A DNA stretch of 64,000 nt, taken from the NCBI GenBank assembly GCA_937127445.1, contig CAKZLY010000015.1, forward strand, positions 231,766 to 295,765, read 5' to 3'. The first letter of the stretch is position 1. Every line of letters begins with the position of its first letter. Positions 6,800 to 20,599 of this stretch are shown piece by piece. The translations under genes and the position numbers were made by a program. This DNA is from Eximiradius sp. (GTDB lineage: Bacteria; Bacteroidota; Ignavibacteria; Kapaibacteriales; UBA2268). A model generated the notes under the pieces. The model was not told the DNA's origin. It did not search any database and was given only the letters and a program-made list of their open reading frames with translations.

Positions 6800-8428
6800 A
6801 TGAGCACAATCTTAAAAGGCAACATTCTCGATATAATTAATAGAACCATTAAGAAAGGTTATATTCAAATTGATAATGGTATTATTAAAGATATTGTTTA
6901 TACCGATGAAGTAGATGACAATACATTCATTATGCCGGGGTTTATCGATGCTCATGTACATATCGAAAGTTCTATGCTGCCACCATCGGAGTTCGCTCGT
7001 GCAGTAGTTAAATTTGGAACAGTTGCAGTGGTTTCTGACCCCCACGAAATTGCGAATGTGCTTGGAGTAGAAGGCGTTGAGTATATGATAACGAATGCAC
7101 GGCGTGTTCCTCTGAAATTTTTCTTCGGGGTACCATCTTGTGTGCCTGCTACAAATTTCGAAACATCAGGAGCAAAGATAACATCTGAAGATATTGAAAT
7201 TCTTTTCAAGAAATATAACTTAAAATATTTAAGTGAAATGATGAACTATCCTGGAGTAATTTACGAAGATCCTGATGTAATAGATAAAATTGACATTGCT
7301 AGAAAGCTTAATAAAAAGATTGATGGACATTCACCGGGATTTATTGGAGATAATTTACAGAAGTATGCTTCGTTCGGAATTTCTACAGACCACGAATGTT
7401 TTACTTATTCCGAAGCATTGGAAAAAATCAAATATGGAATAAAAGTATTAATTAGGGAAGGTTCTGCTGCAAAAAATTTTGACGTTCTATCAAAGCTTAT
7501 TGCCGAGCACAATAATATGTGTATGTTGTGTTCGGATGATTTACATCCGGATGATTTGATAAAAGGTCATATTAATTTGTTGGTAAAGAAAGCATTGAAA
7601 ATGGGTTTTGATTTGTTCGACGTATTAAGTGTGGCTTGCTTGCGACCAATGGAACATTATGGACTAAATGTAGGATTACTGAGAATCGGCGATCCTGCTG
7701 ATATGATCATTGTTGATGATCTCCAAAATTTCAATATTTTGAGAACATACATTGATGGAAAATTAATTTTTGAAAATGGAGTGACATATATTAGTCCATT
7801 TATCTCTGAAAAATTGAATATTTTCGAAGCCGAAAGAATTACGCTTGAAGACATCCAAATAGAGGCAAGGAGCTCCCAAATTAATGTTATCAAAGCTCTT
7901 GATGGGGAGCTAATTACAGAAAAAATTATTTGCGATGCTAAAATTGTAAATAATTGTGTTGTCCCAAATATCGAAGATGATGTGTTGAAACTTGTAGTCT
8001 ATAATCGTTATAAAAAGGCAAAGCCAGCAATAGCATTTATTAATAATTTCAAGTTGAAAAAAGGAGCAATAGCTTCGACTGTTGCTCACGATAGTCATAA
8101 TATAATTGCTGTGGGTGCAGATGATATTTCATTGATTAATGCAATAAATGCAATTATTGATAGTAAAGGCGGTTTGTGTGTTGCTACATCGGCGGAAAGT
8201 ATTTTGCTTCCACTACCAATTGCAGGGCTTATGTCTGCAATGGATTATCCATCGACTGCTAATCTTTATAACAAACTCACAGAAAAAGCAAAGGAATTAG
8301 GTACTGACTTGCAAGCACCATTTATGACATTATCATTTATGGCTTTACTCGTAATACCAAAGCTAAAATTAAGCGATAAAGGATTGTTCGATGGTGAAAA
8401 ATTCGAATTTATTGATTTATTTGTATGA
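6800..8428 (+). CDS. ade: Adenine deaminase
   Basis: IMPGFIDAHVHIESSMLPPSEFARAVVKFGTVAVVSDPHEIANVLG, DGHSPG, STDHE, CSDDLHPDDL; typical adenine deaminase C-terminal domain (TVAHDSHNIIAVG). Confidence 0.96.
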   Translation: MSTILKGNILDIINRTIKKGYIQIDNGIIKDIVYTDEVDDNTFIMPGFIDAHVHIESSMLPPSEFARAVVKFGTVAVVSDPHEIANVLGVEGVEYMITNARRVPLKFFFGVPSCVPATNFETSGAKITSEDIEILFKKYNLKYLSEMMNYPGVIYEDPDVIDKIDIARKLNKKIDGHSPGFIGDNLQKYASFGISTDHECFTYSEALEKIKYGIKVLIREGSAAKNFDVLSKLIAEHNNMCMLCSDDLHPDDLIKGHINLLVKKALKMGFDLFDVLSVACLRPMEHYGLNVGLLRIGDPADMIIVDDLQNFNILRTYIDGKLIFENGVTYISPFISEKLNIFEAERITLEDIQIEARSSQINVIKALDGELITEKIICDAKIVNNCVVPNIEDDVLKLVVYNRYKKAKPAIAFINNFKLKKGAIASTVAHDSHNIIAVGADDISLINAINAIIDSKGGLCVATSAESILLPLPIAGLMSAMDYPSTANLYNKLTEKAKELGTDLQAPFMTLSFMALLVIPKLKLSDKGLFDGEKFEFIDLFV

Positions 8429-8503: not shown

Positions 8504-8869
8504 TTATTTTTCTTCTTTACCTTTTTCGTGTGGTTGGTAGACAACAACATCAACCTCGAAAGTTGTGATCATTCCACCAAAATTATGCCCTGTAAAAATT
8601 TCGTCCAGATGATCTATGAACTCAAAAATTTTCTCTTTTTTATCTATTATTTCAATAACAATTGGTAAATCAGTTGATAGAGCTAGTATTTTAGCTGAAT
8701 GAATCATGCTATTTGCTCCGTACGAAAGTACACCACGAAAAACGGAAGCACCTGCCAATCCCTTACGTTTAGCTTCAAGAACCAAGAACTCATATGTGGG
8801 CTGGTGTTTGTATTTATCTTGTGAACCAATGTAAATGCGTAAAACTTGTGATTTCCCCTCTAATTTCAT
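8504..8869 (-). CDS. DUF190 domain-containing protein
   Basis: MKLEGKSQVLRIYIGSQDKYKHQPTYEFLVLEAKRKGLAGASVFRGVLSYGANSMIHSAKILALSTDLPIVIEIIDKKEKI; DUF190 family, commonly next to crcB. Confidence 0.9.
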   Translation of the reverse strand: MKLEGKSQVLRIYIGSQDKYKHQPTYEFLVLEAKRKGLAGASVFRGVLSYGANSMIHSAKILALSTDLPIVIEIIDKKEKIFEFIDHLDEIFTGHNFGGMITTFEVDVVVYQPHEKGKEEK

Positions 8870-8872
8870 TGC

Positions 8873-9256
8873 TTATCTCCATATATAATTAACTACTGTT
8901 TTGCCCAATAATGTAAGTGAAATACCTAAAAATATACTTACACCCATATACAACATCAAAAACAAAACTTCCCTATCATTTATCAAATTTATTGTATCGT
9001 TCGTAAAAGTAGAAAAAGTTGTTAGACCACCACAAAATCCAACTGAAAGCATTAACCTCATCTCAGGTGACAACACTTCTCCTTTCTCGAATAAACCAAG
9101 AATAATGCCAATTAAAAAGCATCCCACTAAGTTTACAATTAAAGTGCCTAACGGAAAGTTAGTTGGGAAAATTTTATGAACAAATACAGTTGTAACGTAT
9201 CTTGTGATGCTGCCGATAAAACCGCCTATTCCTGCTAACAGAACCCCTTTTAACAT
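8873..9256 (-). CDS. crcB: Fluoride efflux transporter CrcB/Fluc
   Basis: LLAGIGGFIGSITRYVTTVF...PLGTLIVNLVGCFLIGIILG...GFCGGLTTFSTFTNDTINLI; canonical Fluc motifs. Confidence 0.95.
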   Translation of the reverse strand: MLKGVLLAGIGGFIGSITRYVTTVFVHKIFPTNFPLGTLIVNLVGCFLIGIILGLFEKGEVLSPEMRLMLSVGFCGGLTTFSTFTNDTINLINDREVLFLMLYMGVSIFLGISLTLLGKTVVNYIWR

Positions 9257-9257
9257 A

Positions 9258-9340
9258 AAACTCCTATAAAAAATTACTTATAATTTCTTATAGGAGTTAT
9301 CAGCCATTGCTGGCGGTTTTGGCGAACTCCATCACCTTTT
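9258..9340 (-). promoter_or_regulatory. Fluoride riboswitch (crcB motif) with SD-sequestering expression platform
   Basis: Minus strand reads AGGUGAUGGAGUUCGCCAAAACCGCCAGCAAUGGCUGAUAACUCCUA, matching the crcB/fluoride aptamer; the 3' strand AACUCCUAUAA is perfectly complementary to UUAUAGGAGUU containing the crcB Shine-Dalgarno. Confidence 0.93.
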
Positions 9341-9442
9341 GATTGCAAAGTTATAAAAAAATTGTCATCGGTGCAAAAACATTCGAGAAAAAGATACAGG
9401 AATTGGATTGGTAACAACATAAAAATCAAGAGGATAGTACCT

Positions 9443-10195
9443 TTACAAATCACTTGCAATGAAACAAAATTCTTCGTTCAAGTTGAAATAATGTTCAAAC
9501 TGATGTTTGCTTATAGACTTGCGATTTGAAACAAAAGACTTAAGAGTAAAAATTTTTAATCCAATTTCGTCAGCAATAAACTCATATAAAGAATTTGCAT
9601 CAGTACCATAGAAATCGCTTGCACCGATACCAGACTCGAATAAAATAGTCGGCTTACTTGATTTAAGCAGATTTCTTGCTCCTTTCAATACGGGGAATTC
9701 ACCACCTTCGACATCAATTTTAAGGAAATCTATGCGAACATTTTGCGGGATAAGCGAATCTAAAGTCTTAACTTCTACTTGTATTTCTTCAATTTGGGGT
9801 GAAGCGATATCATAGCGTCTTCGTTTAATTCCACTATAAGCTGGAGCATTCTTCACGAACTGAAAAGTTGAGCGTCCTTCTTTATCCGAAAGTGCATAAG
9901 GATAAATTTTTGCTTTTGAACTGAATTTATTAACTAATTCAGTGTATAAATGCGGTAGTGGTTCGAATGCGTAATGAATTCCATCAGGAGCGTATTTATG
10001 AAACAGTTTTAGAATATCACCCTTGTGGCAACCAACATCTATGCAATTTGAGTTAGATTTAAGAATTTTTTTTAAAATAAATCTGGTAATTCTATCATAC
10101 TCAATATTTTTCGTGATATCAATTTTCGACAAGATTAATGCTTCGCGTAGAATGTTTTTTAGAAGTCCCATATTCACTCTAAAATAAAAAAGCAA
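9443..10195 (-). CDS. FkbM family methyltransferase
   Basis: NCIDVGCHKGDILKLFHKYAP...HYAFEPLPHLYTELVNKF...IDFLKIDVEGGEFPVLKGARNLL; true start may be the MGLLKN Met (10171). Confidence 0.88.
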   Translation of the reverse strand: MLFYFRVNMGLLKNILREALILSKIDITKNIEYDRITRFILKKILKSNSNCIDVGCHKGDILKLFHKYAPDGIHYAFEPLPHLYTELVNKFSSKAKIYPYALSDKEGRSTFQFVKNAPAYSGIKRRRYDIASPQIEEIQVEVKTLDSLIPQNVRIDFLKIDVEGGEFPVLKGARNLLKSSKPTILFESGIGASDFYGTDANSLYEFIADEIGLKIFTLKSFVSNRKSISKHQFEHYFNLNEEFCFIASDL

Positions 10196-20404: not shown

Positions 20405-20526
20405 CTAAAATAATTGCTGAATTGAGAATAATAAATAAAGAAACTTACTGAGAATAAGTTCAATTAGAGGAACACATATAAAAAACTATTTACTGCTGTG
20501 ATAATAAAAAAAGTAAAATGAAGTTG

Positions 20527-20599
20527 TGGTCAGGGACGGAATCGAACCGCCGACACAAGGATTTTCAGTCCTTTGCTCTACCAACTGAGCTACCTGACC
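20527..20599 (-). tRNA. tRNA-Phe (GAA)
   Basis: Minus strand GGTCAGGTAGCTCAGTTGGTAGAGCAAAGGACTGAAAATCCTTGTGTCGGCGGTTCGATTCCGTCCCTGACCA; cloverleaf with anticodon loop CTGAAAA; CCA tail not encoded. Confidence 0.96.

Follow-up and report, generated by a model that had tools for sequence, protein, structure and literature searches.

A fluoride riboswitch that probably acts by masking the Shine-Dalgarno sequence of crcB in Eximiradius sp. (Kapaibacteriales)

How the RNA immediately ahead of a fluoride channel gene might govern its expression is the question raised by a short minus-strand segment of the Eximiradius sp. genome, examined here within a 64,000-nucleotide stretch of one contig (the window). 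A first-pass annotation had proposed that the segment contains a near-consensus crcB aptamer, to be checked by an Rfam covariance search, and that fluoride binding frees the Shine-Dalgarno (SD) sequence of a crcB-DUF190 operon. The search (cmscan) returned a full-length match (1-64) to the fluoride (crcB) riboswitch aptamer, RF01734, at 9284-9345 on the minus strand, scoring 56.9 bits where the gathering cut-off is 34 (E 4e-13), and a covariance search of the 2.45-Mb genome found this to be its sole match. From the sequence and its alignment to the RF01734 consensus, the strands GGAGUU (9325-9330, minus strand) and AACUCC (9293-9298, minus strand) were identified as the aptamer pseudoknot, in which the loop of the first stem makes six perfect pairs with the 3' tail (9330-9325 with 9298-9293); the original description of this pairing as P1 was mistaken. 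Judged by sequence, the minus-strand element is a bona fide fluoride aptamer directly ahead of crcB, then DUF190, and selective binding of fluoride and Mg2+ by 9284-9345 is predicted from membership in RF01734.

The aptamer is located in the 5' UTR, 28 nt from the crcB start and adjacent to a putative promoter. The crcB gene (8873-9256, minus strand) encodes a Fluc fluoride channel of 127 aa (PF02537, E 4.7e-30), homologous over residues 1-123 to the solved Fluc channel 5a43 (E 7.4e-15). The start of the next gene, 3 nt past the crcB stop codon, is that of a 121-aa DUF190 (COG1993) protein (8504-8869, minus strand; PF02641, E 8.1e-32) with 1o51 and 2dcl as relatives of solved structure. Matches to both Pfam families downstream of the aptamer agree with crcB-DUF190 as the proposed target, and DUF190 adjoins crcB in 7/7 riboswitch-crcB loci of the family. 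The closest named crcB record (L043), 91% identical, belongs to an 'Ignavibacteria bacterium' metagenome assembly, and the next ones are labelled Bacteroidetes. An adenine deaminase-like gene (window 6800-8428, plus strand) is convergent with the crcB-DUF190 operon, and the only tRNA within the window is tRNA-Phe (GAA) at 20526-20599 on the minus strand.

Upstream of the aptamer, a putative -33 element, TTTG (9374-9377, minus strand), is found 20 nt from a putative -7 element, TAACTTTG (9346-9353, minus strand), of the form TAnnTTTG. The combination TTTG-N20-TAACTTTG, the Bacteroidota promoter form, ends exactly at the first position of the aptamer. The -7 element is proposed from conservation and enrichment: TAnnTTTG occupies the same place in 4/4 genus members, as TAACTTTG or TAAATTTG; in 11/15 loci of the family no more than 12 nt separate it from the aptamer downstream; and on this contig it is found in 68/210 upstream regions versus 27/210 coding stretches. 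Both elements together, with a TTTG-type element, precede 17/210 genes on the contig, versus 3 matched coding stretches. Because the promoter-like motif ends where the aptamer begins, the crcB leader probably consists of the aptamer, a hairpin and the start codon alone. A 61-aa ORF (9274-9459) that overlaps this region was rejected as a gene, as the first-pass annotation had suspected: its frame is broken in three other genus members, leaving 10 to 42 codons, and it starts upstream of the putative promoter that abuts the aptamer.

The same AACUCC that closes the pseudoknot forms the foot of a second structure's 5' arm as well, which makes it the switching strand. The 11-nt complementarity noted earlier, between AACUCCUAUAA (9298-9288) and UUAUAGGAGUU (9269-9259), is perfect and correctly placed, and forms part of a longer hairpin of 18 bp (9259-9298, minus strand) with arms at 9298-9281 and 9276-9259 and the loop UAAG at 9280-9277. 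One of the 18 pairs is G-U, and the inner 12 pairs are A/U-rich. Folding of the leader gave a stability 5.7 s.d. beyond that of shuffled sequences, with this hairpin present in the minimum free energy (MFE) fold. Within the 3' arm lies AGGAG (9261-9265, minus strand), identified as the SD by folding and by SD usage in the genome; its GGAG ends 4 nt ahead of the ATG at 9256, exactly where the first-pass annotation had located it. The two folds are mutually exclusive through the common strand AACUCC, and only one of them leaves the SD unpaired. Predicted energies are -18.6 kcal/mol for the full hairpin, -6.4 kcal/mol for the hairpin without AACUCC, and -6.3 kcal/mol for the pseudoknot strands treated as a plain duplex. 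In unconstrained folding the unpaired probability of the SD is about 0, and when the pseudoknot strands are withheld GGA is unpaired with a probability of about 0.85-0.9 while the inner 12 pairs stay in place, so that the switch needs only the outer 6 of 18 pairs to move.

The hairpin was examined for covariation at further RF01734 loci found by searching at the level of order, class and phylum, with the arms anchored on ACTCC and GGAG/GGGG and the next six pairs scored. Arms from the same locus formed on average 4.73 of the six extension pairs, versus 3.59 of six when arms were swapped between loci. The observed value was reached in 0/20,000 permutations for 30 distinct platforms and in 19/20,000 for the nine of the own family, numbers that are indicative, as the permutation ignores relatedness of the loci. 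Pairs change together between loci; at the second position, for example, A-U is replaced by G-C. The possibility that the hairpin is a dispersed repeat was rejected, there being one copy per genome.

Use of SDs by this organism matters because Bacteroidetes are described as naturally lacking them (PMC6847099). Across 210 well-defined starts on one 296-kb contig, GGAG precedes 31 (14.8%), versus 2/210 (about 1%) further upstream and 1.5% in shuffled sequences. Spacing to the start is mostly 4-8 nt; the spacing of 4 seen at crcB is at the short edge of the genomic range and is shared by only 2 of the 31 GGAG genes. The anti-SD CACCUCCUUU is intact at the 3' ends of 16S rRNA, as read from other genera of the family, the 16S gene being missing from this assembly. 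GGAG is found 4-10 nt from ATG in 10/12 anchored leaders of the family. By these counts the genome does use SD-directed initiation. The resemblance of the hairpin arm to an SD is nevertheless built in, because only an arm reading GGAGU can compete for ACUCC; GGAG is forced by this complementarity, and selection for it as an SD is not required. Pure terminators of the family, L010 and L011, accordingly carry an SD-like sequence too.

The element is probably a fluoride riboswitch of the ON type that controls crcB through a translational expression platform. We infer the response to fluoride, its direction, its kinetics and a translational rather than transcriptional readout as follows. Transcription would start a few nucleotides ahead of the aptamer. 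With no fluoride present, AACUCC would leave the pseudoknot and zip with UUAUAGGAGUU into the 18-bp hairpin, burying AGGAG and crowding the AUG, so that crcB would be poorly translated and DUF190 likewise, by coupling. With fluoride and Mg2+, the pseudoknot would retain AACUCC, leaving the hairpin only the 12 A/U-rich pairs of its inner part and GGAG single-stranded and open to 30S binding. The choice between folds would be kinetic, made during transcription of the 3' arm, rather than an equilibrium reached afterwards; a co-transcriptional decision is probable because the gain of about 12 kcal/mol on completion of the hairpin would be hard for the ligand to reverse. The decision of the B. cereus fluoride riboswitch has been described as co-transcriptional (PMC11077080). 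The earlier proposal that fluoride frees the SD is supported in its ON-with-fluoride logic and in its SD-sequestering hairpin; it needs amending in that only six pairs toggle and that a purely translational mechanism is probable rather than given.

The main competing explanation gives the hairpin the role of an intrinsic terminator, either predominantly or together with SD masking; without fluoride the polymerase would stop at UUUUAUGUU near the start codon, and fluoride would keep it from doing so. Terminators are the best-studied platform of fluoride riboswitches (PMC11077080, PMC13273304), and 9259-9298, which was flagged by a terminator-like scan, has a long, strong stem with G-C pairs at its base and then six U in 8 nt. 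That tail, UUUUAUGU, follows GGAG directly; it is a weak tract, with a U run of only four before A and G, and its terminator score is about -5, under the usual threshold of 0 (a d'Aubenton-Carafa-type score). By the same measure, the same arm is a clear terminator in L010 and L011 (+32 to +36), which have tracts of U7-U9 and an ATG 30-40 nt beyond, while two close relatives, L006 and L015 (about +7 to +9), pair U7-U8 tracts with SD spacing, so that a degree of termination may occur here as well. At the present locus the AUG is at SD distance in 4/4 genus members, and UUUU just ahead of ATG, found in 10/210 genes of the contig, is not unusual here. Because of the SD spacing and the weak U-tract, translational control of crcB is favoured, as the probable reading, over termination or dual control, which we consider unlikely.

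Two other explanations appear very improbable. A functional aptamer with a non-regulating hairpin, or a riboswitch in decay, would fit poorly with a hairpin that covaries between loci and does not vary across the genus, unlike the diverging aptamer and gene, and with an aptamer that retains its consensus at the score given above. The other, with an equally slim chance, is an alternative switch in which the aptamer segment AAAACCGCC pairs with GGCGGUUUU within the crcB codons, a 9-bp complementarity that is present in the MFE fold. Its two halves have independent causes, because the aptamer consensus includes ACCGCC and the conserved Gly-Gly of CrcB is encoded by GGCGG; in L005 the pairing is weaker and in L015 it is missing, and this long-range pairing was dropped as not conserved.

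Four species of the genus share the 46 nt from the pseudoknot strand through the ATG (9254-9299) without a single difference, including the loop and the G-U pair, whereas in the same four genomes 11/46 aptamer columns and 77/126 third positions of crcB vary and the upstream DNA diverges too. In sister genera of similar divergence the platform drifts (36 of 43 positions for L007/L008, 60 of 88 for L010/L011). Among syntenic leaders, that of crcB alone is identical in all three comparisons, and in the comparison with G064 two others of 34 are also identical. This invariance is suggestive rather than extraordinary, and may reflect sequence-specific constraint, recent replacement or chance. A constraint on the hairpin beyond pairing, such as a tuned polymerase pause at the U6 run or contact with the ribosome or a protein, is a decidedly doubtful proposition.

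Arrangements differ within the family. At L003, L007, L008, L009, L012 and L013 the riboswitch precedes a membrane-protein-like gene of 395-405 aa and not crcB, so that a riboswitch without crcB downstream is often seen in the family. The clear terminators formed by the GGAG arm at L010 and L011 stand ahead of a gene other than crcB, membrane-protein-like and of 383 aa, and at L006 and L015 the arm is at SD distance with a U7-U8 tract. Elsewhere in the phylum, the fluoride riboswitches at L148, L149, L151 and L153 have a competing hairpin (GUAGGU/C) that lacks GGAG and ends just 1-2 nt short of the ATG, which looks like masking of the start codon itself. Within one family, then, the same competing arm serves in some loci to terminate transcription and in others to mask an SD, which suggests that a platform can pass readily between the transcriptional and the translational type; the interchange would be easy to evolve because a strand complementary to ACUCC is automatically an SD. 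These natural variants make the transition of a riboswitch from transcription to translation testable.

Terminators overlapping the crcB motif were noted at its discovery (PMC2864571), P. syringae and B. pseudomallei are each accepted as having translational fluoride riboswitches (PMC13273304, PMC8814607), and a 2026 study interprets its covariation models of aptamer plus hairpin as spanning platforms of the transcriptional and the translational kind (PMC13273304). The SD-masking mechanism is thus already known for fluoride riboswitches, and the present locus is a further probable case; what it adds is a clean and computationally well-supported SD-masking candidate in an SD-using lineage of Bacteroidota. 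Compared with the RF01734 crcB motif, it has in common the full-length match, the pseudoknot strands, the 5' UTR position and the crcB target, with no difference at the level of the aptamer. With the translational switches of Pseudomonas syringae and Burkholderia (PMC8814607, PMC13273304) it shares a platform at the ribosome binding site and the lack of a strong terminator, but it differs in phylum and in gene, and its hairpin is A/U-rich and of 18 bp. With the transcriptional switches of Bacillus cereus and Thermotoga petrophila (PMC11077080) it shares a 3' strand of the pseudoknot that is contested by a downstream hairpin; theirs is a terminator, whereas here 4 nt separate the hairpin's foot from the ATG and the U-tract is a weak one.
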